Below, one piece after another: positions 39,117 to 62,930 of a DNA stretch of 64,000 nucleotides (positions within the stretch are counted from its first letter, which is position 1; the number at the start of each line of letters is the position of its first letter). Where the stretch lies: assembly GCA_029263125.1 (NCBI GenBank), contig JAJCYD010000038.1, positions 62,001 through 126,000 on the forward strand, given 5' to 3'. This DNA comes from Solirubrobacteraceae bacterium. Lineage in GTDB: Bacteria > Actinomycetota > Thermoleophilia > Solirubrobacterales > Solirubrobacteraceae. The notes under the pieces are model-generated. The model made no database searches. It was not told the DNA's origin and saw only the letters and a program-made list of their open reading frames with translations. A program made the translations under genes and the position numbers.

Positions 39117-39833
39117 TTGAGCCTTTCCGAACTGCATCGCTACCTGGAGGACTTTCGCGCCGAGCGTGGGCCGGTCAACGTCCTCGAGGCGGGATGCGGC
39201 CGGCGGACGCGCTTTGACCACACGGGCGCGTCACGGGTCGTGGGGATCGACATCTCCGCCCAGCAGATCGCGAACAACACGGTGATCGACGAGGGGATCG
39301 TCGGCGATGTCCAGACACACCCGATCTCCGACACGTTCGATCTGATCGTGACCTGGGACCTTCTGGAACATCTGGCTGACCCGATCGCGGCGCTGGACAA
39401 CCTGGCACGGGCGGTCAAGCCCGGAGGTGTCCTGGTGATCGGCATCCCGAATGTGGCGTCGGTGAAGGGGCTGGTGACGAAGTTCACCCCGCACCGCTTC
39501 CATGTCTGGTTCTTCCGCGAGGTGCGTAAGAGCCCGCGCGCAGGCGGCGCCGAAGGCCCGTTCCCGACGTACCTGCGCTGGTCGTTGCGAGGTCCGTCGC
39601 TACGATCCTGGGCGGCCACGCGAGGCTTCACGGTCGAGCTCGTCGTTGCCTATGAGTCCGAAATCCAGGCCAGCCTGAGGCAGCGCTACGGCGTGGTCGA
39701 CCGGCGCTGGACGCTCTTGAAAGCCGTGCTGAGGGGCATGACGCTCGGCCAGGTCTCCGCCGGCGATAGCGACCTCGCGATCGTTCTGAAATCGGCGGCT
39801 CGAGCGCCGCAACCAGGGCGGCTGGACACGTGA
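39117..39833 (+). CDS. Class I SAM-dependent methyltransferase
   Basis: About 238 aa. NVLEAGCGRRTRF is motif I, VVGIDISAQQI the acidic strand, and DLIVTWDLLEHLADP the motif shared with UbiG/type-11 and -12 methyltransferases. TTG 39117 is used because the sequence before it is antisense to the divergent methyltransferase; no ribosome site is seen, so the start is uncertain. Its TGA overlaps the GTG of the glycoside hydrolase gene. Confidence 0.78.
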   Translation: MSLSELHRYLEDFRAERGPVNVLEAGCGRRTRFDHTGASRVVGIDISAQQIANNTVIDEGIVGDVQTHPISDTFDLIVTWDLLEHLADPIAALDNLARAVKPGGVLVIGIPNVASVKGLVTKFTPHRFHVWFFREVRKSPRAGGAEGPFPTYLRWSLRGPSLRSWAATRGFTVELVVAYESEIQASLRQRYGVVDRRWTLLKAVLRGMTLGQVSAGDSDLAIVLKSAARAPQPGRLDT

Positions 39834-42800: not shown

Positions 42801-42868
42801 CGCGCGATCGATCCAAGAACACATCGGCGATCGTCAGCCGGACGATCGTCGTCACGTCCGAGAAGTAG
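39830..42868 (+). CDS. Membrane-anchored glycoside hydrolase (clan A, GH39/GH5-like) with carbohydrate-binding region
   Basis: 1012 aa. One N-terminal helix (about 8-26) with a basic start acts as signal anchor. A beta-sandwich like CBM4/9 begins near residue 215 (NLIRNGSFETGVGHGW). The TIM barrel spans about 490-830; E606 in WELWNEP is the likely acid/base and E709 in WNTETGTW the likely nucleophile, as in clan A retaining glycosidases. The C-terminus adds a small beta domain and an Ig-like stretch. It probably trims or releases the exported polysaccharide. GTG start overlaps the methyltransferase stop. Confidence 0.85.
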   Translation: MRAALGRAIMLLGAVLLVGGIYALLSNSGEPDRRGDDHERRAFIGTSLTALNFEDDNNANAGRAWTPYSGGDAPAGGFIGAMKPGIDRLTATVKLDEPLKAANYQASVKAIDYDHHMAVTLSAGGGEAKLTTDDRDDNGYWTRSEPMRVDESGELTITLARQPDTPPGPARLLLMGIYLTTDAGETLRADDQVVDLTYPTQRDGSSPRPGNLIRNGSFETGVGHGWGYTNGRAFSVVSTWDPKTAHDGSASLRMPLEPSIYNKAVIGLESSAYAVAPNKRHTLSLWARTDAGNTAAATVSLVNSYDPSTDGALPDGQPAQPKIAKAVEVGEAWTRIDVTGDLLAYPKAEYSVAVVAKTQRGKHLWIDGVSLNEGGPAPYAPRAALQVGLTSSQPSNVFYEDEPQRMRLRVSNETAAGRDAVVRYEVFDERNRRVTSGKRAVRVAAHSTAGRTLDVATGRRGPFRIVLWADGLDGSEEEVLYGVVPRPQRAGADSTSTIGTHSNFLGFTNAAMRKLGIKWDRALSPAGFFRWADVEPADDEFVWFDEPVARAKRQGVRTLGVIGTNNYWPKWADRNGLPDLDKWEEFVAQSARHYRGDVSGWELWNEPLRVFKADFYAKMLKRGAEAVRRSDPKAMVVGMAGAASPAEVKLVVDELEKQFPDWPWRDFVDVLSIHMYPTGEAVEQGGAGQSASYRRQVVQAYDKPTWNTETGTWDRGYFHTDNAPVASWGHQLQPYKSAAQFTDASQLAVERLTRNFIESVGDGLSKFFYYDMRVILSPTYVDSHPTMLEYDDSIRPKGIAFAVLAKLFDHATGLGRVSVGDKATRAFTFRRGDSGLLAVYAGDGKRRAMKLPGIASRRLVVVDSMGNRIPRSRRGIVYGRRPVYVSVAGVGAERLRAAVKRARPVRVPDETAPNVTIDRAPRGPVPGRPLTVRFSAADDNDTLSAVQPRAVVYSHRLTGPGDDGAWSPWSVVNTVQLGTLQRGRHVFSVRARDRSKNTSAIVSRTIVVTSEK

Positions 42869-44968: not shown

Positions 44969-46086
44969 GCGCGGCGCCCATGTCGGTCGTCCACGTGATC
45001 TGGGACGGGCGGATCGGCGGCATCGAGCGTCTCGTCCATCAGATGGCTCGCTGCCAGGTCGCGGCGGGCCTGCACGTGGTCGTGGCCTTCGCGCGGCCCG
45101 TCGGGGTGTTCGCCGACGCGCTCTCACGGGACGGCATCGATGTGCTCGACCTCCGTGTGGGCTCGGGATATGGGCTTGGGCCGGGCATGCTGCTGCGGGT
45201 CGCCAGGGCGCTGCGCGGCTTCGACGTCCTGCACATCCACGCCTTCAACGTTCCGCTTGGGATCGCCGCGGTGCTCAGCGGGCGGCCGGCGGTCTACACC
45301 GAGCACGGCAGCTTCGGCATCGGGCGCCGCTTCGGCGTACTCAAGCGCCGGCTGCAGAAGCTCTACCTGCGCCGGTCGTCGGTCGCCGTCGTCGCCAACT
45401 CGCGCGACACGGCGCGCCGGCTTGAGGCCTACTACGGCATCGCCGGCGAGCAGGTCGACATCGTCCTCAACGGCGTGGCGTTCGGGCCGGCGGCCGAGCA
45501 GCCGGCACGCGAACAGGCGGGCCTCGTCGTCGGCTTTGTCGGGCGCTGGGCGCCGACCAAGCGGCTGGATCGCCTGCTGCGCGCGGTCGCGCTCGCCCGC
45601 CCGCGCGCCGACATGCGGCTGGTGATGGTCGGCGGCGGACCCTACGAGGGCGAGCTGCGTCGCCTGACCGCCGAGCTTCAGATCTGCGACGCCGTCGAGT
45701 TCGTCGGTCCGAGGATCGAACTCGACGAGCTCGTCGACGGCATGGATGTCATCGTCCAGACCGGGATCGAGTCCTTCGGCCTGTCGATCGTCGAGGGCTG
45801 TGGACGAGGAGCGCTGCCGATCGTCTTCGCCGACGGCGGCGGCGCCGTGGAGGTGCTGCCGCCGGACGGCGTCATCGTCGATGGCGTGCAGGAGCTGGCC
45901 GACGCGCTCGTGGCGCTGTGCGGCTCTCCGGCGCTGGGCGCGCCGGCGCGGGCACTCCGCGCGGAGTGGGCGCGGGAGCGCTATGACATCGCGAGCACCG
46001 TGGCCGGCTATCGCCGGATCTACGACCGTGCCCTGGAGAACGGGCGCAGCCGTCGCCGCGCGCGCAGGCCGTCGATGACCTCATAG
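44965..46086 (+). CDS. Glycosyltransferase family 4
   Basis: 373 aa of GT-B fold. VVHVIWDGRIGGIERLVHQ at the N-terminus binds the acceptor side; TEHGSFGIGRRF, NSRDTARRL and VLNGVAF lead into the C-domain GRWAPTKRLDRLLRA, GGGPYEGELRRL and GIESFGLSIVEG, with the E-x7-E donor site. Retaining cytoplasmic sugar transferase. GTG start overlaps the previous stop. Its 3' end overlaps the opposing formyltransferase gene by 67 bp. Confidence 0.9.
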   Translation: MSAAPMSVVHVIWDGRIGGIERLVHQMARCQVAAGLHVVVAFARPVGVFADALSRDGIDVLDLRVGSGYGLGPGMLLRVARALRGFDVLHIHAFNVPLGIAAVLSGRPAVYTEHGSFGIGRRFGVLKRRLQKLYLRRSSVAVVANSRDTARRLEAYYGIAGEQVDIVLNGVAFGPAAEQPAREQAGLVVGFVGRWAPTKRLDRLLRAVALARPRADMRLVMVGGGPYEGELRRLTAELQICDAVEFVGPRIELDELVDGMDVIVQTGIESFGLSIVEGCGRGALPIVFADGGGAVEVLPPDGVIVDGVQELADALVALCGSPALGAPARALRAEWARERYDIASTVAGYRRIYDRALENGRSRRRARRPSMTS

Positions 46087-47711
46087 CGCTCGCCGGCGTC
46101 GTAGGTGTGCGTCGCGATCACGCCGTTCCTGCGGTCGGGGTCCATCCGCCCGAGCACCGTCTCACGGTAGTCGGTCGTCGTCAGGACGTCGATGCGGTGC
46201 AGGACGATCGCGCTGCCGTAGCGCCCCGCGCAGTCTTGCGCAGGGCGCAGCACATCGGCGCCGTTGCGGAAGATTCGCCCGGCCGGTCGTGCGCGCCGCA
46301 CGTCGGACACGACGGGGTTCATCGGATGAGCCGTCCACGCGGCGTCCGGTGCCGTCGCCCAGAAGACGAACAGCTCGTCGGTCGGCGCGGCCCCCGGCAT
46401 CGCGATCGCGGTGAACATCCACAGCAGCTCCCCGTCGTCGAAGATCGTCGTATCGCACGCGTCGACGCCCGTCATCAGGACGCGCTCTCGCACCCACCGG
46501 TCGGGCAGCCGCTCGGCACGGAAGAGCTCGATCGTCTGCGCGGCCGAGGTCTCGGGGACCATGTAGGCCTGGCCGCGCCAGGCGAACGCGAACGGATAGG
46601 ACAGATGGTGATCGCGCTGCAGCACCACTCGCGCAGGCTCGGGGGCCGCGGTCACCGGCAGGGGCAGGCACGAGATCACCCCCTTGCCGTCGGCATGGCG
46701 AAACTCCTCGAAGAGCAGGTGGTCGCCGAGCACGAAGGGGTCGGCGTAGTAGCGATCGGCGGGTGGAGTGATCTCCTCGAAGCCTTCGAGGAACCCGCCG
46801 TCCAGCGGTGAGCCGTCGCGGCGTCGGCGGTAGGCCAAGAACCACTGCTCGCGGGCGATCAGCCGGCGCAGCCTGCGCGCCGCGATGCCGCGCCCGATGC
46901 GGATCAGGAAGCGCAGCATCTGGCGGTTGGTGGGGCTGCGATAGATCGGCTTGTCGTAGGCGCACGTCTCGCGGTACTCCGGCAGCGCCTCCAGACGCTC
47001 CCACCCATGCTCGTGCAGCTCGCGCAGACGGCGGATGACGAAGTGCGCGCTCTTCCAGAAGGCGCGGTCTCGCCCGCGGTGCAGCGACACGGGATGCGTC
47101 GAGGACCACGACCGGTACAGCACGCCGCCGCCGTCGAGCTCGTCGGTCAGGCGTTGCAGGATCGTCCCGGACACCGGGTTGCCCTCGTACATCTCCCAGA
47201 AGAACGGCGGTGTGCCGCGGTAGTGGCGGTTGTCACCGTGGTGAAAGGACCACACGCCGTAGCGCGCGGCGTCGAGGATCTCGCCGCGGATGATGTTGAA
47301 GCCGAATCGCAGGAGGACGTCGAGGTCGGCGGCCCGGATCGCGGCGATCGTCTCGGCGTCGAAGCGGTGCTCGAAGCGCCGCGGCGCGAGCGGCACCGTC
47401 GACAGCCGTGGGACGGCGGCGAACTCCGCGTCCACGTCGACCGCTGCGGAGGCATCGGTGCCACCCGCGCCGAAGACGCGCTGGTCCACTCGCTTGTAGA
47501 GCTTGTAGGCGATCAGCGAGCGATTGCCCCGCAGGCGGTCGCGCCGCGACCGTGGCGGGGGCGTCTCGTCGTTGACGACGAACAGCGCCAGCTCGCTGAA
47601 TGCCGACGCCTCGATCTGGCGCAGGATCAGGGCTTCCCAGCTTGCCAGCGAGAAGCCGTTGACCATCACGCCGATGCGCAGCGGCGGCTTCTGCTCGGCG
47701 GCCGACGGCAT
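46020..47711 (-). CDS. Formyltransferase domain fused to a GINT1-N-like beta-propeller
   Basis: 563 aa. Residues 1-250 follow the folate-dependent formyltransferase fold: LRIGVMVNGFSLASWEALIL, RFGFNIIRGEILDAARYGVW, then SFHHGDNRHYRG at the catalytic site and LTDELDGGGVLY. The usual Asn of the N-x-H pair is Ser here; His and the later Asp remain. Residues about 300-560 (RYYADPFVLGDHLLFEEF, SYPFAFAW, GRIFRNGADVLRPAQDCAG) match the N-terminal domain of plant GINT1-like proteins found in bacterial glycan loci. May formylate or bind an amino sugar. Start is 4 nt after the stop of asnB. Confidence 0.72.
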   Translation of the reverse strand: MPSAAEQKPPLRIGVMVNGFSLASWEALILRQIEASAFSELALFVVNDETPPPRSRRDRLRGNRSLIAYKLYKRVDQRVFGAGGTDASAAVDVDAEFAAVPRLSTVPLAPRRFEHRFDAETIAAIRAADLDVLLRFGFNIIRGEILDAARYGVWSFHHGDNRHYRGTPPFFWEMYEGNPVSGTILQRLTDELDGGGVLYRSWSSTHPVSLHRGRDRAFWKSAHFVIRRLRELHEHGWERLEALPEYRETCAYDKPIYRSPTNRQMLRFLIRIGRGIAARRLRRLIAREQWFLAYRRRRDGSPLDGGFLEGFEEITPPADRYYADPFVLGDHLLFEEFRHADGKGVISCLPLPVTAAPEPARVVLQRDHHLSYPFAFAWRGQAYMVPETSAAQTIELFRAERLPDRWVRERVLMTGVDACDTTIFDDGELLWMFTAIAMPGAAPTDELFVFWATAPDAAWTAHPMNPVVSDVRRARPAGRIFRNGADVLRPAQDCAGRYGSAIVLHRIDVLTTTDYRETVLGRMDPDRRNGVIATHTYDAGERYEVIDGLRARRRLRPFSRARS

Positions 47712-47715
47712 CGTT

Positions 47716-49557
47716 TTAGATGTTGATCTCACACCACGCTGCGAGCGTGCCGATCGTCCACAGGGAGAACGACGCGTTGTCTGAGCGCCCGGCGCGCAGC
47801 GGCTCGATCGCCGTCTTGGACAGCAGGCCCTCGGCGACGAGTTGCGAGCTGGCCGTCAGGCGGTGGGCGAGCAGCGGCGCGGCCCAGTCGGCGACCGGCG
47901 GGCAGAAGCCCTGCTTGGGCCGCTGGGTGATGTAGGCGGGAAGCAGCGGCTTGACGGCCTGGCGAAACAGCGCCTTGGGCGCGTAGCCGGGAACCTTGAC
48001 GCTCTGAGGCAGCCGAAACGCCCACCGCGCCAGCTCGGGATCCAGCAGCGGCACGCGACCTTCGACGGAGTGGTTCATGCCCATCCGGTCCAGCCGTGTG
48101 AGGTAGTCGCCGAGCAGGTGTCGCTTGACCGCGACATAGGACATCCAGCCGAGGAAGTCGCCGTCGCGGGCACGCTTGTCGTAGCGCCGGCGCAGCGTGG
48201 CCAGCGGCGCCGCCGGTGAGCAGCCCGCGAGCGCCCGCTGCCCGGCCGGTCCCAACGAGCGGGCAAGGTCGTCGTCGTGAAATGGCCTGCTGCCGACGAA
48301 CAGCTCGCCGTTCTCGCTGGCCCGGCGCGCGATGTCGCCCGCCAGTCCGCCCGCGGCCCGGCGCGTCGCCAACCCGGCGGCGCGCCGCAGCGGCCGGGGC
48401 ACGCGCCGCCAGTAGCGCTCGTGAAAGCGTAGGTAGGTCATCCAGCGGTTGTAGCCGCCGAACAGCTCGTCGGCGCCGTCGCCGGAAAGCAGGACCTTGC
48501 CGCCGTCCTCGTGAACGGCGCCGGCGATCGCCGAGACCGCGATCCAGGTCGGATTGCTCGACGGCAGGTCCATCGCCGACAGCCACTGGTCCAGGTCCGC
48601 CTGAAGTGACTCCTGCGTCAGTCGAAGGTCGCGATGGCGAATGCCGAGGTCCCCCGCCAGGCGCCCTGCCGCGTGCGATTCGTCGGTCTCAAGGCCGAAG
48701 GAGACCGAGTACGCCGTCAGCTTGGACGGGTCGGTGTGACGGGCGGCGAGCGCCGCGATCACGCCGGAGTCAAGCCCGCCCGACAGCATCATCGATATCG
48801 GCACGTCCGCCACGAGCGACGCCCCGACCGCCTCGTCGAGCAGCCGGCGCAGCTCGGTCTCGGGCGGCCCTTCCGGCGCGGGACCGCCGTCGAGCACGTC
48901 CCAGTACTCGGCGACCTGCACGCCGCCGGCGCCGACACGCAGCAGGTGTCCAGGCTCGAGCTGGCGCACCCCTGCGATCAGCGTCCGGTCGTCGTTGGTG
49001 TGCCCGAAGGACAGGTACTCGATGACCGCGTGGTGATCGAGGTCGCGCGACAGCGCGGGGTGGGCGAGCATCGAGCGCATCTCGCTCGCGGCGACGAACA
49101 CACCGTCGCGCAGCGCCCAGTACAGGGGCTTGACGCCGAGCTGGTCGCGCACCGCAACGAGCTCGCCGGTCTGATGGTCGGCGAGGACCAGCGCGAACAT
49201 CCCTCGTAGGCGTGCGAATGCCGACTCGCCGAATGTCAGGTATGCGTGCAGCACGACCTCGGTGTCGGACTCGGTCTCAAAACGCACTCCCCGGCCGGCC
49301 AGCTCGGCGCGCAGCCGGCGGAAGTTGAAGACCTCGCCGTTGTAGACGAGGGTGTAGCGACCGCTGGGGTCGGTGAAGGGCTGGCTGGCCTGCGGGTTGT
49401 CGGGGTCGATGATCGCCAGCCGGCAGTGCTCCAGCACGAGCCCGGCGGATGTCGCGACCGCCTCACCGTCGGGTCCGCGGTGGCGCATCGTCGGCAGCGC
49501 CCACGGCATGGCGCGGCCGTCGCCACGCGTGTCGAACGTGACGCCTAGGCCGCACAT
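47716..49557 (-). CDS. asnB: Asparagine synthase (glutamine-hydrolysing), AsnB-type
   Basis: 613 aa. The N-terminal Ntn amidotransferase domain has the nucleophile C2 (MCGLGVTFD), RHRGPDG and YNGEVFNF; the synthetase domain has the PP-loop SGGLDSG and LLSGDGADELFGGYNRW. In glycan loci such paralogues usually amidate uronic acids of the polysaccharide, using glutamine and ATP, rather than making asparagine. The ManNAcA-type precursor from unit one could be its substrate; that is inference. The gene is inside the large leftward operon. Confidence 0.9.
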   Translation of the reverse strand: MCGLGVTFDTRGDGRAMPWALPTMRHRGPDGEAVATSAGLVLEHCRLAIIDPDNPQASQPFTDPSGRYTLVYNGEVFNFRRLRAELAGRGVRFETESDTEVVLHAYLTFGESAFARLRGMFALVLADHQTGELVAVRDQLGVKPLYWALRDGVFVAASEMRSMLAHPALSRDLDHHAVIEYLSFGHTNDDRTLIAGVRQLEPGHLLRVGAGGVQVAEYWDVLDGGPAPEGPPETELRRLLDEAVGASLVADVPISMMLSGGLDSGVIAALAARHTDPSKLTAYSVSFGLETDESHAAGRLAGDLGIRHRDLRLTQESLQADLDQWLSAMDLPSSNPTWIAVSAIAGAVHEDGGKVLLSGDGADELFGGYNRWMTYLRFHERYWRRVPRPLRRAAGLATRRAAGGLAGDIARRASENGELFVGSRPFHDDDLARSLGPAGQRALAGCSPAAPLATLRRRYDKRARDGDFLGWMSYVAVKRHLLGDYLTRLDRMGMNHSVEGRVPLLDPELARWAFRLPQSVKVPGYAPKALFRQAVKPLLPAYITQRPKQGFCPPVADWAAPLLAHRLTASSQLVAEGLLSKTAIEPLRAGRSDNASFSLWTIGTLAAWCEINI

Positions 49558-49572: not shown

Positions 49573-50664
49573 CTACTGGGCGGCGAGATCGCTCAACCAG
49601 CGCGCGAGCTGGCGGTCGGTGTGCTCCTGGGTGTACTGCGATTCGTAGCGCCGGCGCGCGGCGCGGCTCATGCGATCGCGCAGCCCGGGCTCGCCGAGCA
49701 GCGTGAGGATGCGCTCGGCCAGCTGGGATGGCACGGGATCGTCGAGGACGAAGCCCGAGGCGCCGTCGATCACCGTCTCGGCGATCGCCCCACGGTCAGT
49801 CGTGACGACCGGCAGCCCTGCCGCGAGCGCCTCGAGCACCACGCGCGGATGGCCCTCCGGCTCGGCGGGAGGAAACAGCAGGTATCCCGCCTGCGCCAAG
49901 ACGTCGCTCTTGCTCTGCCCGCTCACCGGCCCGCGGAACTCGATGCGGTCGCCGAAGTCGGCTGCCATGTCGCGCATCTGACGATCCAGCTGCGGGCTCT
50001 CGGGGCTGCCGGCGAAGATGAAGCGCGCCGTGGGCCGCTCGCGCAGCACCATGATCGCGGCCTCCAGCGCCTCGACGACGCCCTTGCGGCGACGCAGGTT
50101 GCTCAGGTAGAGGCCTGTCTCCCCGTGACGCTCGCCGGTGTCCAGCCGCAGGTCGGGCGTGCCGTTGACGACGACGGTGATCCGCTCTTCGGCGATCAGC
50201 CCCGCGAAGATCCAGTGCAGGCGCGAGCCCATGACAGCCATCGAGCTGACGCGGCGCAGCGTGCCACGGATCCACCAGCGCGCAACGCGCGACTGTGCGT
50301 CATAGAAGCCGCGGAACTCCGAGCCTCGCAGGTGCGCCGCGACCTTCCATCCACGCGCCGCGGCAAGCCGGACGTACAGTGAGTCGCGCAGCACGGCGAG
50401 CAGGCCCTGAGACAGGGGCAGGTACACGACGCCCCGCGGACCTCGCAGCTGGCGTGCGAGGTCCAGCAGGCTGCGCAGACCGATCCACACGTTCTGCACG
50501 TCCAGCCGGCCGATGTTCTGCGCGTCGCGACCGTCGCTGAGGTCGACGTGGCGCACGACGAACGCCTCGGCGAGATCCGGATTGGCGAGGACGAGCGAGG
50601 TCGAGATCGTCACACCGTGCAGGGGCGGCGGGAGTCCGCCGATGACCACCAGCCGCGGCTTCAT
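49573..50664 (-). CDS. Glycosyltransferase family 4
   Basis: 363 aa, GT-B fold. IGGLPPPLHGVTISTSLVL opens the N-domain (Gly-rich acceptor loop); the C-domain has LYLSNLRRRKGVVEALEA, FAGSPESPQLDRQM and FPPAEPEGHPRVVLEALAAG with the E-x7-E donor motif. ATG 50664 overlaps the stop of the polymerase gene. A cytoplasmic transferase that adds one sugar of the repeat unit. Confidence 0.9.
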   Translation of the reverse strand: MKPRLVVIGGLPPPLHGVTISTSLVLANPDLAEAFVVRHVDLSDGRDAQNIGRLDVQNVWIGLRSLLDLARQLRGPRGVVYLPLSQGLLAVLRDSLYVRLAAARGWKVAAHLRGSEFRGFYDAQSRVARWWIRGTLRRVSSMAVMGSRLHWIFAGLIAEERITVVVNGTPDLRLDTGERHGETGLYLSNLRRRKGVVEALEAAIMVLRERPTARFIFAGSPESPQLDRQMRDMAADFGDRIEFRGPVSGQSKSDVLAQAGYLLFPPAEPEGHPRVVLEALAAGLPVVTTDRGAIAETVIDGASGFVLDDPVPSQLAERILTLLGEPGLRDRMSRAARRRYESQYTQEHTDRQLARWLSDLAAQ

Positions 50665-52421
50665 GCGGTCACCCTTCGCGCGTTGAACTCCTTTGTCACG
50701 ACGGCGAAGACGATCCACGCCAGGAACGTCAGTCGCGTCACCTCGAACCAGTTCTCCAACACCGCCATCTGCAGCAGGACGAACATGCTGACGGTGCTCG
50801 CGCAGAGCAGCGCCGGCAACGGATCGCCGTCGCTCGCCGTCCGCACCGACGTCATCGTCATGCGCAGGGTGAACAGGAACGCCCACACGTAGAGCCCGAC
50901 GATCAGCGCGAACCCCAGCACGCCGACCTCCGCAAGGAGCGACAGATAGCTTGAGAACGGTGAGCTCAAGGCCCGCGAGCCGTCGACGACCTCCGCGTCC
51001 AGCAGCTGCGGGACGACGTACTTGTCTGAGACGTCGGTCGTGTACAGGCGACCGTTGGTCAGCGCCTTGACGTAGTCGCCGGCGACATTTGAGCCCGACG
51101 AGGAAATGGCGGCGCGCGCGAAGGTCTGCCAGCCGCGGCTGGAGTACGTGCCCGGCCCGGTTCCCGTCAGGATGAAGCGCGCGTCCTCGGTGTACAGCTG
51201 CCCCACGACCTGAGCGGGGCCGAGGCGCTGCTTGACGAAACTCGTCGGGTCGCCGCGCGATTGCTCGATCGCGGTGCCGAACTTCAGCTCGGGAACGTTC
51301 TGGGCGACGTACACCAGCGTGCACAGCAGCCCTCCCACCGCGAGGATCCCGATCAGCGCACCTCGCCCGCGGGCGAAGCTCAACACGGCGCCCAGCAGCA
51401 GGGTCGTCAGGAACGTCGTGATCAGCAGTGAGCGGTACTGCGCCAGGAAGATCACGACCATGACCGCAAGCAGCAGGAACGGCACGAGCTTTGAGACCAG
51501 ACGCCGCCGCTCGAACGTGAAGATGCCGGCCAGCAGGCCGACGCTGACCAGCAGGAAGAACACGAGCTGATAGGCGTTCTCGCCGAAGGTGCCGGCGATG
51601 ACGTCGGGGTTCTTCGTCGCCAGGTACTCCGGCAGCTGGACCCCGAAGGCGAGGACGAGCTGCAGCACGGTGATCACGACCAGCAACCGCGACAGTCGCA
51701 CGGCCGAGCCCGGGATCCACAGCCGGTGTACCGCGTAGAAGACGACGACGGGCCCGATGAAGCCGTAGAGGAACATCAGGGCGGGCGCCGGCTCGACCCG
51801 CGTGAGGTTCGTCATGGCCGCCAGCGCGAAGACTGCCAGGAACAGGAAGGCGATCACGAGCGCGGGCGCGGGCGCGCGTACCTGCTTGGTCGCAGGTGAC
51901 GAGAACGCCGCCGCGACGCCGAGTAGCACGAAGATCGGGATGTCGACGAAGTTCGCCGCTCGCGGCAGGACCGACAGCAGCTCGGTGAACGCCCGGATCA
52001 CGAGCAGCAGCGTCAGCGAGCCAAGCACGAGCACGGTCGGGAACCTCGCGCCGGGAGCAGTCCGCTCGGGCTCGGCGGCGCTGGACGGCGACGGCGCGCT
52101 TGCCGCGATCGGGGTGCGCTGGACGGTCTCCTGAAACCAGCTCACGGGGCGTCCGGTCGCGTCCGCGATCGCCAGCAGGTGGGGTGTGGCGTCGACGGCG
52201 TCGCGTTCCAGGCGTTGCACGTGCCACAGCGACAGCCCGATGCGGCGACCGAGCTCCTTGGCGGTGAGGCCGGCGCGGCGGCGTGCCAGCGCGATCCGGC
52301 TGCCGAGCTCTGGATCTGCGACGGACGCTTCGCCCGCGTTCGGGCCCTGCCTCCGGCCGCGGCCGCGAAGCGGGCCCAATCGTGAGCCGAAGGACCACGG
52401 GCCGGTCGCGGGCGTGGTCAT
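50661..52421 (-). CDS. XRE helix-turn-helix fused to O-antigen ligase/polymerase (Wzy-like)
   Basis: 586 aa. A short basic N-terminus, then at about 36-95 an XRE-type helix-turn-helix (GSRIALARRRAGLTAKELGR, RIGLSLWHVQRLERD), a Pro/Ser linker, and from about 130 roughly eleven membrane helices of the O-antigen ligase/Wzy type, with a large outer loop (FVKQRLGPAQVVGQL, GTGPGTYSSRGWQTF). Polymerises or ligates exported repeat units. The HTH faces the cytoplasm; it may bind DNA or protein. ATG 52421 overlaps the previous stop by ATGA, so the HTH is truly part of this gene. Confidence 0.82.
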   Translation of the reverse strand: MTTPATGPWSFGSRLGPLRGRGRRQGPNAGEASVADPELGSRIALARRRAGLTAKELGRRIGLSLWHVQRLERDAVDATPHLLAIADATGRPVSWFQETVQRTPIAASAPSPSSAAEPERTAPGARFPTVLVLGSLTLLLVIRAFTELLSVLPRAANFVDIPIFVLLGVAAAFSSPATKQVRAPAPALVIAFLFLAVFALAAMTNLTRVEPAPALMFLYGFIGPVVVFYAVHRLWIPGSAVRLSRLLVVITVLQLVLAFGVQLPEYLATKNPDVIAGTFGENAYQLVFFLLVSVGLLAGIFTFERRRLVSKLVPFLLLAVMVVIFLAQYRSLLITTFLTTLLLGAVLSFARGRGALIGILAVGGLLCTLVYVAQNVPELKFGTAIEQSRGDPTSFVKQRLGPAQVVGQLYTEDARFILTGTGPGTYSSRGWQTFARAAISSSGSNVAGDYVKALTNGRLYTTDVSDKYVVPQLLDAEVVDGSRALSSPFSSYLSLLAEVGVLGFALIVGLYVWAFLFTLRMTMTSVRTASDGDPLPALLCASTVSMFVLLQMAVLENWFEVTRLTFLAWIVFAVVTKEFNARRVTA

Positions 52422-53815
52422 CGCGCCGGCTTCCTGCGCGCGCGCGACAGGACGCCCAGGCGCAGTCCGGCGGTCATCGCGTCGACCGCGTGCTGGAGGG
52501 TCCAGCGCCGCGCGATCGTCTGGCGCGCCGCGTGCCCGATCGCGCCGCGACGCGTCGGATCCTCGACGAGATCGCGGATCGCCGCCGCCCAGTCGATCGG
52601 GTCGTGCCCATCCACGACGATGCAGTTCTCCCCGCTGAGCGCGAGGTCGGCGACCGCCCCAGCGGCGCTGGAGACCACGGTCGCCAAGCCGGCGCCCATC
52701 GCCTCGACGAGCACGAGACCGAAGACGTCCGAACGCGTCGGAAACAGGAAGATGTCGGCATCGGCGTACGCCCGCAGCGTGCGATCGGATGCGACCGCGC
52801 CCAGGAAGCGGACGTTGCTGGCGTTCCCGGCTCGCGCCTTGAGCGCAGCGAGCTCGCTGCCGTCGCCGATCACCGTCAGGCGGCATGGCGCGTCGCGCAG
52901 GCGCGAGCAGGCCTCGACGACGACGTCCAGTGCCTTACGGGGGATCGCTTGAGCGACGGCGAGCACCTCCACCACCTCCCGTGAGCTCGTGGCAGCGGTC
53001 TGGAGGGCAGGGATCAGAGCGGTGTTGCGGCCGTAGACGAGCGGCAACCGCGGCGCAAGCTCGCGCAGGTACTCCCCGCTGAGATGGCCGTAGGAGATCG
53101 CAAAGTCGGCGTAGCGCAGCAGCAGCCGGCGCTGACGGCGGCGTAGGCTCGAGACATCGGCGGGCGCCTGTTGGATGGCTCCGCTCCACACTCCGTAGGC
53201 GGCGTTTGAGACGCGGGCCGCCAGCGCCGCGCGCACGGCCACGGCGGGGGAGAATCCCGCCACGAGGACCAGCGTGGGCGTGGCGCGCCTGATCTGCCGT
53301 TCGAGCGTCAGCGGGGCATCGGTCGCACCGACCGGCAGGCGAACACTGCGCAGGAACTCGTGATCGAACACGATCGGCTCGGGCGCCATGAACGCCCGCG
53401 ACGTGGGCCAGATGCCGGTGAAGATCACGCGCAGCGTCGCGCCCGCGTTCTGAAGGCGGATGCTGAGCTGGTTGAGCAGGGGCACGCGGTAGTGGGTCGG
53501 GAGGTTGGTCACGATGACGATGCGCTCGCCGGCGAAGATCCCGTCGTCGCCGCGCCGCACGCTGGCGGGCTGCTCGCCGTCGTCGAGCGACCGCACGAGC
53601 TCAGCCATCGACGGCGGTGCGCGACGCGAGGCCGGCGACGGTGGCACGGCGCGGCCCGAGACCGGTGCCGTTCGCAGACGGGACTCGATGCCATATGCGG
53701 TGGCGAGCATCCTCAGCGCGCGGGCATCCCCGTTGGGGGCAGGGTCCGCCATCTGCACGTCGTCGGGCAGCTGAGCGAGGGCGTGCAACAGGACATCCGG
53801 TCGCTCGGTGAGCAC
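52418..53815 (-). CDS. Glycosyltransferase family 4 with extra N-terminal segment
   Basis: 465 aa. Residues 1-50 (LTERPDVLLHALAQLPDDV, RALRMLATAYGIESRLR) resemble the tail of another GT4 domain, then a Pro-rich linker leads to a full GT-B enzyme (IVIVTNLPTHYRVPLLNQLS, LAVAQAIPRKALDVVVEAC, FLFPTRSDVFGLVLVEAMGA with E-x7-E). The N-terminal remnant suggests loss of a first GT domain. GTG 53815 lies 2 nt after the kinase stop. Confidence 0.87.
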   Translation of the reverse strand: MLTERPDVLLHALAQLPDDVQMADPAPNGDARALRMLATAYGIESRLRTAPVSGRAVPPSPASRRAPPSMAELVRSLDDGEQPASVRRGDDGIFAGERIVIVTNLPTHYRVPLLNQLSIRLQNAGATLRVIFTGIWPTSRAFMAPEPIVFDHEFLRSVRLPVGATDAPLTLERQIRRATPTLVLVAGFSPAVAVRAALAARVSNAAYGVWSGAIQQAPADVSSLRRRQRRLLLRYADFAISYGHLSGEYLRELAPRLPLVYGRNTALIPALQTAATSSREVVEVLAVAQAIPRKALDVVVEACSRLRDAPCRLTVIGDGSELAALKARAGNASNVRFLGAVASDRTLRAYADADIFLFPTRSDVFGLVLVEAMGAGLATVVSSAAGAVADLALSGENCIVVDGHDPIDWAAAIRDLVEDPTRRGAIGHAARQTIARRWTLQHAVDAMTAGLRLGVLSRARRKPAR

Positions 53816-53817: not shown

Positions 53818-55383
53818 TCAGGACGGCGACTTGGCCTTGCGCGAGTCCGGCGCGTACCCGTACCCGTAGCCGTAGCTGCCCATGAACGCCTCGTCGGCCT
53901 CGGCGCCGGTCACCGCGAAGCCGAGCTTGGTCACCGGGGCTGTCTCGATCAGGCGGCGCAGCTCTTCCAGCGCCGGGCGCCGGATGCTCGAGATCTTCGT
54001 CAGGATGATCAGCGCGTCGACCTTCTGTGTGAGGTTGATGGCATCGCTGACCGCCAGCATCGCCGGAGCGTCGATCAACACGAGGTCGGCACGGTCCTCG
54101 AGGCGGGCCAGCACGTCGCTGAGGGCCTGTGAACGCACGAACTCCGACGGGTTGGGCGGCAGCGGGCCGGCCGGTAGCACCTCGAGCGTCCCGGCGGCCT
54201 CGTCGTGATGGCTCTGGCCAGGGGTGGGCTCGGAGATCGAGATCGGCACGAGCGCCTCTTCCAGCCACGCGCGCCCGAGTGCCACCTCGGTGATCCCGGC
54301 CTTGCCGCTGAGTCCGAAGAAGCGGTGGACCACCGGGCGGCGCAGGTCGAGGTCCACCAGCACTACGCGCTTGCCCGAGCGCGCGAAGGTCACGGCGAGG
54401 TTGGCGATCGTCGTGGACTTGCCCTCTGCCGGATTGGCGCTGGTGACCATGAACGAGCTCGCGCCGCAGTCGAGGTTGGCGAACTCGATGTTCGTCGCCA
54501 TCAACTGGAAGGCCTCGGTCTCGGGTGCGTCGGGCGTGACGATCATCGTCAGGGCATGGCGATTGCGCAGGTTCTTGGCGGGCTCATAGAGTCGTCCGAG
54601 CAGGGGCAGTCCGAGGACCCGCTCGACATCCTCGGCCGAGCGGACCTTCGTATTCAGCGCGTCGCGCATCAGCACGAGGCCGATGCCGAGGACGAGCCCG
54701 AGCACGCCGCCGAAAATGCCGTTGCGCGTCGGATGAGGTTGCACCTGTGAGGCAGACCGCGCCGGGCGTCCGAGCAGCGCAATCGAGTCGAGCAGCAGCT
54801 CGCGCTCGCGCAGGGTCTGATTGCGCGACGTCAGATCCGCGTAGACGTTGGAGTCCGTGCGGCCGCGATTGCGAAGGCCGCGCAGCTGCTCCTCGACCTC
54901 CAGCCGCGCCTTGCGCAGGGCGCCGGTGTCCAGCTTGCGCCGGTAGGCCACGTAGCGCTTGGCGTAGGTGTTGGTGAGCGTCGACGCCGCCTCGCGGCCG
55001 GGGTCGGTGACCGAGAAGGTCAGCACGTCCGCGCTGCGGCTCGCCACGACCGATGAGCGCGCCAGGAATGTGCTCAGATCCGGCGCGCCGGACTTCTTCA
55101 GCGTCGGCTTGACGATCGCGGGGACCCGAGCGACGAGCGCCTGGGTCTCCAGGACCCGCGCGGGCTGCACTCCCGTCTGCGACACGTCGGCCAGCGACGA
55201 GCCGACGTTCTTGGTGTCGATGAAGACGTCCGCCGTGGCCTGGTAGAGCGGTTGCTGACGGGAGGAGAGAAACACCGCGGTGCCGGCGAGGAGCACCGTC
55301 ACGAGCAGGATCAGCGGCACGCCTCGACGCAGGGTGCGGGCGGAGCGGCTGGCAACCGCGACGTCGGGATTGTTGAGGCTCAC
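53818..55383 (-). CDS. Wzz/CapAB-type chain-length protein and tyrosine autokinase (BY-kinase)
   Basis: 521 aa. A Wzz domain with two membrane helices (about 20-40 and 228-248) is followed by the ATPase part: Walker A SANPAEGKSTTIANLA, Walker A' VVLVDLDLRRP and Walker B LVLIDAPAML. The C-terminal tail SYGYGYGYAPD supplies the tyrosine cluster for autophosphorylation. Controls polymer length and export together with Wzy. The CpsB-type phosphatase at 62,931 would reverse it. GTG start overlaps the previous stop. Confidence 0.93.
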   Translation of the reverse strand: MSLNNPDVAVASRSARTLRRGVPLILLVTVLLAGTAVFLSSRQQPLYQATADVFIDTKNVGSSLADVSQTGVQPARVLETQALVARVPAIVKPTLKKSGAPDLSTFLARSSVVASRSADVLTFSVTDPGREAASTLTNTYAKRYVAYRRKLDTGALRKARLEVEEQLRGLRNRGRTDSNVYADLTSRNQTLRERELLLDSIALLGRPARSASQVQPHPTRNGIFGGVLGLVLGIGLVLMRDALNTKVRSAEDVERVLGLPLLGRLYEPAKNLRNRHALTMIVTPDAPETEAFQLMATNIEFANLDCGASSFMVTSANPAEGKSTTIANLAVTFARSGKRVVLVDLDLRRPVVHRFFGLSGKAGITEVALGRAWLEEALVPISISEPTPGQSHHDEAAGTLEVLPAGPLPPNPSEFVRSQALSDVLARLEDRADLVLIDAPAMLAVSDAINLTQKVDALIILTKISSIRRPALEELRRLIETAPVTKLGFAVTGAEADEAFMGSYGYGYGYAPDSRKAKSPS

Positions 55384-57584
55384 GATCGGCGATCTCCTGG
55401 CTCGGTGAGGGTGTCGCGATGGTTCGGGATGTCGCGCGCAAGCCCGAAGTACCTGCTCTGAACGGGCTGGCCGCTGCCCTCGCACGCCGCGTCCAAGGCG
55501 GCGAGAGCTGCCGCCATCGACACTAGAGGATCGAGCGCGTCTGCTGCCGTCGGATCGCCCGTCAATGCCTGGTGCAACCGGACGAACTGGCGTCGATGGC
55601 CCTTGTCCTGGACGCGCGAGCCGAGTCGCCGGCGCTTGGAGCCGGTGCGCAGCTCCAGGGTGCGGAAGTCGTCGAGGATCGCCGAGCGTCCGCCCGCATG
55701 GACCTCCACGAGCTCCTTGGGCAGCCCGCTGGCCCCACCGTCGGTGTACAGGATCGTCGCCATCGAGCCGTCGGCGAACTCCAACGTGACGGAGAACCGC
55801 TGGGCGCTCTGGATCGTCTCGCCCTTGCGCGGACGGATCACGCAGGAAACCCGCTCGGGTGCGGCGCCCACGATCCACGAGGCAAGGTCGATGAAGTGAC
55901 AACCTTCGCCCAGCAGCCGTCCGCCGCCCTCGTCGGGGTCGTTGAGCCAGTGGTCCGCTGTCAACCTGCCGGCGTTGACCCGGATCAGGATCTCCGCAGC
56001 GTGGCCGTCGCCGGTCGTGTGGGCACGCAGCTCGTCGACGAGCGGCGCGTGACGGCGGTTGAAGCCCACGAACAGCGTCTGCTTTGACGCGTCGCGCGCG
56101 TGTCGCAGATCGGCGAGCTCGTCCCACGTCAGGCACGGCGGCTTCTCGACGTACACGGCCTTGCCGGCCCCGAGTGCGCGAATGCCCAGATCGGCGTGGC
56201 TGGAGTGCCGCGTCGCGATGACGATCACCGACGTGGCGGGATCGTCGATGACGCTCTCGACGCTTGCCGCCCGCACGCCGCTAAAGCGCTCGGCGACGCT
56301 CGTCGCGGACAGCCCGCCGGCGCTCGCAACACAGACGAGCTGCAACCCGGCCGCGGCGAGGCCCGGCAGCAGGATCCGTGACGCGAAGCTCCCGGCACCG
56401 ATCAGCCCGAAGCGGGCGTCTGGAGTCCGTGCGCCGAGGGTCACGGGTGCGGCGGGCAGGATCGCGCCGGTGGCCGGGTACTCGATCACGATGCCCAGTG
56501 GCGAGGTTGCCGAGGACGCGAGGCGATCGTAGGCGTCGGACACGTCGCTGACGGGCACGCGCTCGGTGATCAGTGCGCCGACGTCCAGGCGCCCCGTGCC
56601 GACGAGCTCGACGAACGCCTGCATGTTGCGCCGTTCGGTCCAGCGCACGTAGCCGATCGGATAGTCGATCCCGCGTTCCTCGTAGACGTGGTCATAGCGA
56701 CCGGGCCCATAGGAGCGAGACAGCCGCAGGTCGATCTCCTTGTCGTAGTAGGGCGCGCGCGGAACGCTGAGGCCGACGTCGCCGACCACGACGACGCGGC
56801 CGCGGTCGCGGCACAGAGCCGCGGCAAGGCGTACCGGATCGTCGGATGGCGTGGCGGCGGCGATGATCACGGCGTCGCAGTCGCCGACGTCGGGTGCCGG
56901 GCTGGAGATGTCCAGCCGTTCGCGCGTCATTGCGACGTCGAGCGCTCCTGCGGCACGGGCGCGTTCCAGCAGGCCGACATCGAGGTCGACGCCGACGACG
57001 GTGCAGCCCGCGGCACGCAGGAGCATCCCGGCGATCTGACCCACCAGCCCCAGACCGATGACCGCTACGCGTTCGCCGAGGCGCACGTCGGCCTGGCGGA
57101 CGCCGTGCATGGCGATCGCGCCGACGGTCGCGAAGGCGCCATGCTCGAAGCTCACCGCCGCTGGCAGCCGTACGCAGAGGTTGCCTGGCACGTGCTCGAG
57201 CTCGGCGTGGACGGCGCTCCCGCCGCCGCACGCGACGCGATCGCCGGGGGCGAGGTCGCGCACGAGCGGGCCGACCGACAGGACGACGCCCGCCGATGAG
57301 TACCCCAGGACCGAGGGCTCGTCCAGGCGAGAGCGCACCGCGGCCACGGTGGCCTTGATCCCGTCGCGCTTGGCCTTCTCGAGCACGACGGCGACCTGGT
57401 CGGGGCGTGAGCGTGCCTTCTGCACGAGGTTCTTGCGGCCGGCCTGGACCTTGGTGCGCTCGGTTCCCGCGCTCAGCACGCTTGCGCGAACGTCGACCAG
57501 CACGCCTTCGGGCGATACGCTCGGCACCGGCACGTCGAGCACCTCCACCTGCCCGTCGCGCATCCGCTGAGTGACCTGCTTCAC
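55380..57584 (-). CDS. Two-domain oxidoreductase: Zn-dehydrogenase fused to Gfo/Idh/MocA
   Basis: 734 aa. Residues 1-365 are an MDR-type alcohol dehydrogenase (VLSAGTERTK, LGYSSAGVV, GLGLVGQIAGMLLRA as NAD loop); 390-734 are a Gfo/Idh/MocA enzyme (GLIGAGSFASRILLPGLA, VEKPPCLTWDEL with the catalytic Lys, GEGCHFIDLASWIVG). Such fusions occur in other bacterial surface-glycan loci and probably oxidise a sugar nucleotide or its linked sugar in two steps. 48 bp from the phosphotransferase gene; GTG start with GGTGA upstream. Confidence 0.88.
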   Translation of the reverse strand: MKQVTQRMRDGQVEVLDVPVPSVSPEGVLVDVRASVLSAGTERTKVQAGRKNLVQKARSRPDQVAVVLEKAKRDGIKATVAAVRSRLDEPSVLGYSSAGVVLSVGPLVRDLAPGDRVACGGGSAVHAELEHVPGNLCVRLPAAVSFEHGAFATVGAIAMHGVRQADVRLGERVAVIGLGLVGQIAGMLLRAAGCTVVGVDLDVGLLERARAAGALDVAMTRERLDISSPAPDVGDCDAVIIAAATPSDDPVRLAAALCRDRGRVVVVGDVGLSVPRAPYYDKEIDLRLSRSYGPGRYDHVYEERGIDYPIGYVRWTERRNMQAFVELVGTGRLDVGALITERVPVSDVSDAYDRLASSATSPLGIVIEYPATGAILPAAPVTLGARTPDARFGLIGAGSFASRILLPGLAAAGLQLVCVASAGGLSATSVAERFSGVRAASVESVIDDPATSVIVIATRHSSHADLGIRALGAGKAVYVEKPPCLTWDELADLRHARDASKQTLFVGFNRRHAPLVDELRAHTTGDGHAAEILIRVNAGRLTADHWLNDPDEGGGRLLGEGCHFIDLASWIVGAAPERVSCVIRPRKGETIQSAQRFSVTLEFADGSMATILYTDGGASGLPKELVEVHAGGRSAILDDFRTLELRTGSKRRRLGSRVQDKGHRRQFVRLHQALTGDPTAADALDPLVSMAAALAALDAACEGSGQPVQSRYFGLARDIPNHRDTLTEPGDRRS

Positions 57585-57632: not shown

Positions 57633-59150
57633 TCAATTCGCACCACGACGAGCAAGCACGACCGGGAAGGTGTGCAGCACGAGCTTGACGTCTCCCCACA
57701 GCGACCAGTTGGTGACGTAGAGGTAGTCGAGCTTGACCATCTCGTCGAAGGGGATCGTCGTTCGGCCCAGCACTTGCCATAGGCCCGTCATGCCCGGCGT
57801 CAGGTCCAAGCGCGTGCGTGCCCACTCGCCCACCTGGCCGTCCTCTTCGGGGACCAGCGGTCGTGGGCCGACGAGGCTCATGTCGCCGGTCAGGACGTTG
57901 AGCAGCTGCGGGATCTCGTCGAGGCTCGTGCTGCGCAGGAAGCGCCCGACGCGCGTCGCGCGGGGATCGTTCTCCAGCAGCAGCCAATTCGGGTCGCGGC
58001 TGAGCTTCTGCAGCTCGCCGCGCTGTGCCTCGGCATCGACGACCATCGTGCGGAACTTGAAGATCTGGAACTCCGCGCCGCTCTTGCCCACCCGTCGCTG
58101 TCGAAAGAGTGTCGGTCCCTTGGAGTCGATCCTGATCGCCAGCGCGACGGCGACGAACACCGGTGCGAACAGCGTCATGAGGATCAGCGCTCCGACGACG
58201 TCCATACCGCGTTTCATCGCACGGGCAGAGCGTGGCAGGACGGGTGGGTTGACGCCCAGCAGCGTAATGCCGCCGACGTGGTCGACGGCCACGCTCGTGC
58301 CGAGCACCCCGAACGCGGCCGGCAGGAGGCTGACCTTGACCGACAGCTGCTTGCAGCGCTTGAGCAGGACAAGCACCACCTCGTCGGCGAACCCGGCCGC
58401 CTCGACGATCACCCGGTCGATTCGGTGCGTGGCGATCAGGGAGGCGATGTCGGTGTCCTCGAGCTCCCCGAGCGACTCCAGGCCGGCCGGTGCGGCGGCG
58501 CTCGCCGCGTCGGTGACGATGCCGACCGGTTCCAAGCCCAGCGACGGGCGGTCACGCATGCGCATCGCCAGCGGCGCCGTGCTGCGGCCGCTTCCGACGA
58601 ACAGCACCCGCTCGGGGCAGAACAGGCGGTTGACCGCGCTGCGGACCGACGCTCGCAGCGTGACGAGGCACACGCCGGCCGCGGTCGCGAAGGTGAGCAT
58701 CGTCCAGAACTCGACCTTCGTGGTCGGGGCCAGCTGGTAGTAGGCCCACATCGCACTCGTCCCGATGAGGATCGTGTGAAACAGCCCGGGCAACTCGTCG
58801 GCGCCGCTGTGGCTGATACGGCGCGCGTCGTTGCTGTAGAGGCCGTACACGTTCATCAGCAGCAGCCAGACGGGGATCGTCAGCAGCGCCCACAGGCCGT
58901 GGCTGGCCAGGTGGAACGGTCCCGTGGCGATCGCGGTGACCACCAGGCCGAGGAGCAGCGCCATGACGTCGGCCGCGACCAGCAGGCGGCGCATGTAGTA
59001 GTCGCGAGACACATGGCGATCGGCGACGACGGGCGCGCTGATGTCGGGAGCCAGGAGTTCGACGCGATCCAGGCCGGCGAGCGAGCGCCGGACGCGCTCG
59101 GTCATGGCGGCTCGGGAGCGTTCGCGAGTGGCGCTCTGGGTGTCGCTCAT
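57633..59150 (-). CDS. Polyprenyl-phosphate glycosylphosphotransferase (WbaP/CpsE-like)
   Basis: 505 aa. Four N-terminal membrane helices, a CoA-binding-like middle (RVLFVGSGRSTAPLAMRMRD), another helix, and the C-terminal bacterial sugar transferase domain: KRGMDVVGALILMTLFAPVF, GKSGAEFQIFKFRTM, RFLRSTSLDEIPQLLNVLTG and SLVGPRPLVPEE. Starts the glycan by moving a sugar-1-phosphate to undecaprenyl phosphate. ATG 59150 overlaps the stop of the Gfo/Idh gene (ATGA). Confidence 0.95.
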   Translation of the reverse strand: MSDTQSATRERSRAAMTERVRRSLAGLDRVELLAPDISAPVVADRHVSRDYYMRRLLVAADVMALLLGLVVTAIATGPFHLASHGLWALLTIPVWLLLMNVYGLYSNDARRISHSGADELPGLFHTILIGTSAMWAYYQLAPTTKVEFWTMLTFATAAGVCLVTLRASVRSAVNRLFCPERVLFVGSGRSTAPLAMRMRDRPSLGLEPVGIVTDAASAAAPAGLESLGELEDTDIASLIATHRIDRVIVEAAGFADEVVLVLLKRCKQLSVKVSLLPAAFGVLGTSVAVDHVGGITLLGVNPPVLPRSARAMKRGMDVVGALILMTLFAPVFVAVALAIRIDSKGPTLFRQRRVGKSGAEFQIFKFRTMVVDAEAQRGELQKLSRDPNWLLLENDPRATRVGRFLRSTSLDEIPQLLNVLTGDMSLVGPRPLVPEEDGQVGEWARTRLDLTPGMTGLWQVLGRTTIPFDEMVKLDYLYVTNWSLWGDVKLVLHTFPVVLARRGAN

Positions 59151-60184
59151 CGCGCGCTCCCAAGGTGCGCGCCGATCGGCACGTCGGCTCCGCCGGTGTT
59201 CAGCGAACGATCTGCGGCCTCGAGCAGCTGCACGACATCGCGGGCGAGCGCGAGTTCGCCGTCGTCCTCGCGCCTGCCGCGGCAGCGATCCAGGAACGCC
59301 TCGATCTCCGCGGCCAGCGGCTCCTCGGTTGAGAGCTTGGGCGACGTGATGTCGCCCGTGCGGTAGGACAGGTGGTACTGACCGAAGGTCGCGGGGTCCT
59401 CGTAGACGACGCCGTGGTCGAAGATGCGGACGGCCTCTGGATTGCCGTCCTCGTAGACGACCATCCGCTTGCTGCCGACGAGGACCGTTCTGCGCAGCTT
59501 GCTGGGCGCAAGCCAGCTGAGTTCGACGTTCGCCAACACGCCTGATGCAAATTCCATCGTCACGAAGGCCACATCGTAGATGCCGGGTACGACGGCAGCT
59601 CGTCCGGAGGCGCGCACGCTCGTGGGCATCTCGCCCAGCCATGAGAGCAGGATCGAGAAGTCATGTGGGCCGAGGTCCCAGATCACGCTGACGTCGCGCT
59701 GGTGCAGCCCGAGGTTCACGCGGCTGGAGGAGATGAAGTACAGCTCGCCGAGCACGTCGTCGCGCACCATCCTGCCGACCGCTCGCACGGGAGGGCTGTA
59801 GAGGAAGGTATGTCCGCACATCAGCGTGCGATCCGCCTCGTGGGCGAGGTGGATGAGGTCCTCGGCCTGTTCGGTGGAGGGCGCGAGCGGTTTCTCGACG
59901 AGCGTGTGCTTGCCCGCCTCCAGGCTGCGGCGCGCGAGATCGAAGTGCGTGAAGACGGGTGTGGCGAGGATGATCGCATCGACGTCGTCGTCGGCGTAGA
60001 GCTCTGAGACGTCGGTGGTGGTGCGCGCGGCGGGGTGCCTGCGGCTGATGCGGTCCAGGGCGCCCTGATCGAGGTCGCACAGCCATGCGACATCGACGTC
60101 CTCTCGTTCAGACAGGACCCTCAGGAGGTTGGGGCCCCAATAGCCCAACCCCACGATCGCGACGCGCATTCGTGCGCTACTCAT
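59147..60184 (-). CDS. Gfo/Idh/MocA sugar-nucleotide dehydrogenase
   Basis: 345 aa. RVAIVGLGYWGPNLLR binds NAD; VEKPLAPSTEQA has the catalytic Lys, and DLGPHDFSILL the conserved His. Similar to WlbA-type dehydrogenases that make a 3-keto sugar nucleotide for the DegT aminotransferase next to it. ATG 60184 is chosen because AGGGGG lies 9 nt upstream; ATG 60169 is possible. Confidence 0.87.
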   Translation of the reverse strand: MSSARMRVAIVGLGYWGPNLLRVLSEREDVDVAWLCDLDQGALDRISRRHPAARTTTDVSELYADDDVDAIILATPVFTHFDLARRSLEAGKHTLVEKPLAPSTEQAEDLIHLAHEADRTLMCGHTFLYSPPVRAVGRMVRDDVLGELYFISSSRVNLGLHQRDVSVIWDLGPHDFSILLSWLGEMPTSVRASGRAAVVPGIYDVAFVTMEFASGVLANVELSWLAPSKLRRTVLVGSKRMVVYEDGNPEAVRIFDHGVVYEDPATFGQYHLSYRTGDITSPKLSTEEPLAAEIEAFLDRCRGRREDDGELALARDVVQLLEAADRSLNTGGADVPIGAHLGSAR

Positions 60185-62866: not shown

Positions 62867-62917
62867 GCGCCGTCCGTGGACCTGAATCTGGTCGTGCGAG
62901 CCGTTGCTCACGTGGGG

Positions 62918-62923: not shown

Positions 62924-62930
62924 CGACACC

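Follow-up and report, generated by a model that had tools for sequence, protein, structure and literature searches.

An XRE-type helix-turn-helix domain fused to a Wzy/WaaL-like membrane enzyme in an exopolysaccharide gene region of a Solirubrobacteraceae bacterium

Why should a polytopic membrane enzyme of polysaccharide assembly carry a domain of the DNA-binding type? This question is raised by a gene in a 64,000-nucleotide stretch of contig JAJCYD010000038.1 (positions 62,001 to 126,000; assembly GCA_029263125.1) from a bacterium of the family Solirubrobacteraceae; we refer to this whole stretch as the window. An earlier note, made from the sequence alone, had described at positions 50661-52421 an XRE helix-turn-helix (HTH) of about 60 residues in frame with an O-antigen polymerase or ligase, and had proposed that the HTH either serves a one-component membrane regulator or is reused for protein contact in the way of RodZ. 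These coordinates proved to be exact, and the gene lies on the minus strand. With a probability of roughly 0.55, we favor the interpretation that its product is a polymerase of the Wzy/WaaL (GT-C_B) kind furnished with an XRE-derived cytoplasmic protein-docking domain. The kind of enzyme is known; its combination with an XRE HTH is an unusual and testable architecture, with two full examples in the data searched.

The fusion gene encodes a protein of 586 amino acids, with the ATG start codon at 52421-52419 and the stop codon at 50663-50661. Its reading frame is open throughout, and its start overlaps by four nucleotides the stop codon of an upstream glycosyltransferase gene, as the note had read (ATGA at 52418-52421, minus strand; gcgATGAcc). 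From the N- to the C-terminus, the protein is composed of an XRE-fold HTH (approximately residues 38-97), a variable linker, and about 12 transmembrane (TM) helices. An orthologous fusion of 573 amino acids, which shares 48% identity with residues 24-582 of the window protein, is present on contig JACCYP010000221.1 of the metagenome-assembled genome (MAG) MGR_bin207, which belongs to the Thermoleophilaceae, another family of the same order. There, the gene order, a Wzz co-polymerase with a bacterial tyrosine (BY) kinase domain, a GT4 glycosyltransferase, the HTH-Wzy fusion, and a second GT4 glycosyltransferase, is that of the window, and the ATGA overlap is kept as well (L002 1534-1537). The fusion is real and not an artifact, as the earlier note had maintained; it is conserved in a second family, and it is rare. 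An error of assembly or gene calling is ruled out by this independent MAG.

Comparison of the two fusions also allowed us to ask how the individual parts of the protein have evolved. The HTH and the enzyme part are each 49% identical between the two genomes, values close to those of the flanking upstream (50%) and downstream (51%) glycosyltransferases, whereas the linker (residues 98-126; 52044-52130, minus strand) retains only 33% identity. The number of nonsynonymous substitutions per nonsynonymous site (dN), estimated by the NG86 (Nei-Gojobori) method with our own script and used alone since synonymous sites are too diverged, is 0.51 for the HTH and 0.45-0.53 for the enzyme parts, but 1.36 for the linker. 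By this measure, selection appears to constrain the HTH as strongly as the enzyme, whereas the linker drifts. A chance or neutral fusion, or an assembly error, that left a functionless HTH is hence scarcely credible: its appeal lies in the rarity of the architecture, with two full copies among the genomes searched from order, class, and phylum, and in the existence of a homolog without the HTH (see below), but it is largely refuted by conservation, namely by these dN values and by an independent MAG from another family that has the same fusion, start overlap, and neighbors.

Searches of 232 genomes of the order, 399 genomes of the class (searched twice), 396 genomes of the phylum, and the contigs of 84,980 species yielded no further full-length fusion, a member count that is a lower bound, since distant relatives escape the species-contig scan and just a few candidates per genome are scored in the genome searches. 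In the first class search, three candidates were scored per genome and these were crowded by ordinary XRE regulators; when it was repeated with the membrane part alone, no additional close member emerged. No relative was found on the plasmids or viral contigs searched either. One further genome (G050) contains the end of an ortholog, with or without an HTH, at a contig edge, next to the same downstream glycosyltransferase gene. Another (G280), from a different family of the class, encodes in a related cluster a homolog that lacks the HTH; the HTH domain is therefore optional. The possibility that HTH and Wzy exist in relatives as separate genes only, which according to the earlier note would have pointed to a local error or a chance fusion, does not hold: MGR_bin207 carries the fusion, and a search of the entire G280 genome at E 1e-5 detected no separate copy of the fusion-type HTH. 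By-eye reading of N-termini revealed no N-terminal HTH in any of the Wzy_C proteins above the cut-off in the bacterium's own genome (8/8) or in the distant class matches inspected. In a literature search that extended neither to subscription-only journals nor to UniProt and other protein databases, we found no description of an HTH-Wzy fusion.

The HTH domain (residues 38-97; 52131-52310, minus strand) is matched over residues 38-96 by two Pfam families, HTH_3 just over its cut-off (E 6.5e-5; 23.3 bits versus 23) and HTH_31 under it (E 2.3e-5; 25.1 bits versus 27). AlphaFold2 places a five-helix domain at residues 39-97 (helices 39-49, 54-61, 65-72, 79-89, and 93-97), with ten-residue block means of the predicted local distance difference test (pLDDT) score mostly at 81-91 up to residue 90. 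Its fold matches are XRE repressors and DNA-binding domains with Z-scores of 9-11 (e.g., 7t8i, Z 11.0, root-mean-square deviation (rmsd) 1.8 over 64 residues). These data establish the XRE fold that the note had recognized ahead of the membrane part. That the nearest folds are XRE repressors would suit a membrane-tethered one-component regulator, the HTH of which would bind an operator in the exopolysaccharide cluster and report the state or substrate load of the polymerase to transcription; VanZ-type membrane enzymes of lipid or exopolysaccharide metabolism with fused HTH or ribbon-helix-helix (RHH) domains have been read in this way (PMC12419801). The HTH domain of the window protein is, moreover, slightly basic (net charge +2).

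The details of the recognition helix (residues 64-74, SLWHVQRLERD; 52200-52232, minus strand) speak against such a regulator, however. In an alignment with the 434 repressor, L65 and W66 fall opposite Q28 and Q29, and R70 opposite Q33, the three glutamines with which the repressor reads the bases of its operator. The two fusions agree in L65 and W66, while position 70 is Arg in the window protein and Gln in the ortholog. The helix has a net charge of 0 (-3 in the ortholog), and the entire HTH domain of the ortholog one of -2. D74 and D77, conserved in both orthologs, lie in the loop after the recognition helix, where the 434 repressor is basic, and an Ala of the window protein aligns with the phosphate-contacting Gln17 of that repressor. 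An operator search upstream of the transferase gene of the cluster gave nothing beyond imperfect inverted repeats, located between 59739 and 60096. The signs that bear on sequence-specific DNA binding are those of the sequence, i.e., Leu-Trp at base-reading positions and a helix charge of 0 or -3, and from them the HTH of the fusion protein appears to have lost its DNA-reading features; the regulator reading is unlikely. The pattern of Leu-Trp, charge, and acidic loop would suit a protein-contact surface.

Relatives of the HTH point in the same direction. Among the nearest that we found are those of four proteins (L015, L017, L018, and L019) from another Thermoleophilia family, with 43-48% identity over 54-60 residues. 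Across 48 distinct HTHs, Leu plus an aromatic residue at the base-reading positions was confined to the two fusions, L017, L018, L019, and L100. Two of these, L017 and L018, consist of an HTH and a long coiled coil (assigned by eye from the sequence and not by a predictor); L019 is a protein of 157-181 amino acids with no clear coil, and L100 is a fragment frame of 57 amino acids. L015 combines two HTHs with a coiled coil and has Leu-Gly at the base-reading positions. Of the two roles that the earlier note had entertained, protein contact is hence favored over a one-component regulator because Leu-Trp is invariant, positive charge is not conserved, the loop is acidic, and the nearest relatives with the same signature sit on coiled-coil proteins; the parallel with RodZ is one of manner, not family. 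The coiled-coil partner that the note had suggested looking for was not found: no HTH-coiled-coil protein with the fusion-type HTH is encoded in the bacterium's own genome (next-best HTH match, 28 bits), and such HTHs occur on coiled-coil proteins elsewhere in Thermoleophilia.

We observed XRE HTHs fused to long coiled-coil-like proteins of up to about 1135 amino acids in another Thermoleophilia family (L114 2974-4101 in G440, with two tandem HTHs; L115 1332-4736 in G435; L116 13106-14311 in G452). They may be scaffolds or resemble cytoskeletal proteins, the HTH serving for docking. By-eye reading of the surroundings of HTH-coiled-coil genes showed mostly unrelated genes; only L114 is close to apparent glycosyltransferases and the end of a Wzy_C gene.

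Many XRE domains dimerize, and the HTH might accordingly serve self-association, clustering the polymerase without a separate partner. The invariant Leu-Trp pair would suit a self-interface, and no other protein of the bacterium's own genome contains an HTH of the fusion subtype. The XRE-family HTH of RodZ offers a precedent, as it does not bind DNA and binds not only MreB but also RodZ itself (PMC6946637). We nevertheless give self-association a slim chance.

What, then, is the membrane part to which this HTH is attached (TM1-TM12; 50685-52043, minus strand)? Hydropathy analysis called 11 TM helices plus a probable twelfth (about residues 561-579); the ortholog has 12. A large loop between TM9 and TM10 (125 residues, 374-498; 50928-51302, minus strand) contains the conserved motifs GTGPGTYSSRGW and SSPFSSYLSLLAEVG. 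Since an odd number of helices separates the two, the 125-residue loop lies outside and the N-terminus, with the HTH, inside. The assignment as O-antigen polymerase or ligase failed in hmmscan, where Wzy_C scored E 0.91 (9.7 bits; Pfam cut-off 31.7) in the window protein and E 0.0028 (17.9 bits, also under the cut-off) in the HTH-less G280 homolog, and found support in profile-profile and fold comparison. Aligned by hhalign with eight Wzy_C proteins from the bacterium's own genome, the membrane part gave probabilities of 94% in local and 97% in global mode; the negative control, Wzx of the cluster, reached 0.1%. Among the solved structures aligned, WaaL (7tpg) was the best match (Z 16.2, rmsd 5.0, 323 residues), followed by FtsW (Z 12.5-13.1) and RodA (Z 9.7-10.4), and then by unrelated chains at 7.7 or less. 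The profile comparison and a low-confidence model together establish the fold; the membrane part is predicted to be a remote WaaL/Wzy-type (GT-C_B) enzyme.

Individual residues bear on the question of which reaction this enzyme might catalyze. In the global alignment, R330 (AQYR) falls on the conserved arginine of the SR motif, the first Arg of the family, and F489 aligns with the His that is conserved in the aHn.yl..lae.G motif. R399, near the second diphosphate-binding Arg of the ligases, is Lys in G280. This His and two Arg are constant in ligases, whereas same-clan polymerases rely on Asp/Glu or on other positions (PMC10920833). Since the ligase His is replaced, by Phe, Leu, or Arg in the three family members that cover the site, the evidence leans toward a polymerase, and we infer that the membrane part probably is one rather than a ligase. 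E560 and R563, at the outer end of TM11, are invariant in all four sequences and are candidate activity residues. An O-antigen-type ligase, which would be compatible with any role of the HTH, finds backing in WaaL as the closest solved structure and in the presence, about 12 kb away, of a canonical Wzy_C protein that bears the ligase His motif, so that the region holds two such enzymes; but that second protein, having retained the His, is the better ligase candidate, and the substitutions at this site are at odds with the residues that ligases keep (PMC10920833). We therefore consider a ligase doubtful.

The surroundings of the fusion gene are those of a predicted Wzx/Wzy-type exopolysaccharide region, with Wzx, co-polymerase, and initiating transferase all present. 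On the minus strand, the upstream GT4 glycosyltransferase (52418-53404 for the scanned C-terminal part, the true start lying further upstream, up to about 53.9 kb; Glycos_transf_1, E 4e-27) and its downstream counterpart (49573-50751; Glycos_transf_1, E 4.5e-25) are 49.5% and 50.7% identical, respectively, to the genes at the same positions in MGR_bin207. Two genes upstream of the fusion lies the Wzz co-polymerase with a BY-kinase-type P-loop domain and a Tyr-rich tail (53818-55347 as translated, with the start further upstream; Wzz, E 2.5e-4, below the cut-off; AAA_31, E 4e-8), an ortholog of which, 51% identical, is found beside the MGR_bin207 fusion. An initiating sugar-phosphate transferase (57633-59642; Bac_transf, E 2e-63) and a Wzx-type flippase (32031-33551; Polysacc_synt, E 1.5e-21) lie on the same strand, and a CpsB/CapC phosphatase of the BY-kinase pathway (62904-63671; PF19567, E 1.4e-31) on the plus strand. 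Beside CpsB, on the bacterium's own contig just beyond the window end, is the canonical Wzy_C protein mentioned above (L065 1679-3874), which is 731 amino acids in length, carries the His motif of the ligase type, and ends in a long C-terminal tail.

Another window gene (55380-57584, minus strand) joins, by Pfam, a zinc-alcohol-dehydrogenase-like domain to a GFO/IDH/MocA oxidoreductase and has apparent homologs in the exopolysaccharide clusters of MGR_bin207 (L063 6682-8820) and G280 (L064 3147-5336). A 570-residue protein (46020-47732, minus strand) has a weak formyltransferase match in its N-terminal half and a match to GINT1_N, a plant glycosyltransferase N-domain, in its C-terminal half. 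Beside the cluster, the sole match of a protein of 1012 amino acids (39830-42868, plus strand) is a weak one to CBM_4_9, a carbohydrate-binding module.

In our favored interpretation, a polymerase of the Wzy/WaaL kind would extend an undecaprenyl-diphosphate-linked exopolysaccharide outside the membrane, its chemistry residing in the outer loop of the membrane part. The former XRE DNA-binding domain at the cytoplasmic N-terminus would now dock a protein and, on its flexible linker, tether the polymerase to a partner in the cytoplasm or membrane, much as the HTH of RodZ ties RodZ to MreB. The likeliest partner, named here speculatively, may be the Wzz/BY-kinase, whose kinase domains would come to lie beside the polymerase. 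We consider it as a candidate because its gene is adjacent in both genomes with the fusion and is off the 26-kb contig of the HTH-less G280 gene (G280 has kinases of the Wzz-BY type on other contigs), and because Wzy sits within the Wzz ring in the enterobacterial common antigen (ECA) system (PMC10030265). The HTH might then plug into the Wzz/BY-kinase assembly and couple the phosphorylation cycle to the polymerase from inside, with the same hydrophobic HTH subtype serving as a docking tag on coiled-coil scaffolds in related bacteria; this extension is a tentative one.

Several points weigh against the docking interpretation. Trp or Leu at base-reading positions alone does not exclude DNA binding, and an ordinary-looking XRE protein of 162 amino acids in G050 (L105) has Val-Trp there, which cautions against taking the Trp as proof of protein contact. 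Full-length fusions number two, so claims of invariance rest on two sequences. The predicted model of the membrane part has a mean pLDDT of 53-55 (53 for the membrane-only model), and an acceptor-activating Asp/Glu residue was not located in this part of the protein. The kinase adjacency sets two genomes against one, with the G280 cluster on a short contig, and could be due to chance.

In Wzx/Wzy systems, the way in which the kinase cycle inside the cell controls a polymerase that works outside the membrane is, to our knowledge, an open question. A polymerase with its own docking domain, present in some homologs and absent from others, would offer a direct handle on this control. If our interpretation is correct, the fusion joins RodZ as an example of an XRE fold that has been put to new use at the membrane, in the synthesis of envelope polymers, and it warns against labeling such HTH-bearing membrane proteins as regulators.

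Among known systems, RodZ resembles the fusion in that a cytoplasmic N-terminal HTH of XRE fold leads through a linker into the membrane, in a setting of envelope polymer synthesis. RodZ, however, has one TM helix and a periplasmic domain, whereas the fusion has 11-12 TM helices and an enzyme. Membership of the fusion HTH in the RodZ family was considered and rejected: HTH_25 scored 17.6 and 19.4 bits against a cut-off of 24.6, RodZ_C did not match, and BLAST found no match between the fusion HTH and the RodZ of the bacterium's own genome, which holds MreB and a separate true RodZ. The comparison is thus one of manner. With the WaaL/Wzy_C family (CAZy GT121, 7TPG), the fusion shares the topology of 12 TM helices, the large late outer loop, the G.G..tf and laE.G..G motifs, the first Arg, and the best structural match; it differs in lacking the ligase His, in falling below the Pfam Wzy_C cut-off, and in its N-terminal HTH. 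The inverting polymerases of clan GT-C1 (Wzy, GT125-GT129) and the SEDS proteins FtsW and RodA are alike in fold class, conserved Arg, and the Wzx/Wzy-type cluster (PMC10920833); an acceptor-activating Asp/Glu was not located in the fusion. The HTH-coiled-coil proteins (L015, L017, and L018) and L019 have neither TM helices nor a membrane enzyme and come from another family of the class. VanZ-type Lipocone proteins with a cytoplasmic HTH or RHH likewise join a membrane enzyme of the envelope to a cytoplasmic domain of the DNA-binding type, but their membrane domain belongs to another family and they are read as possible transcriptional regulators (PMC12419801).

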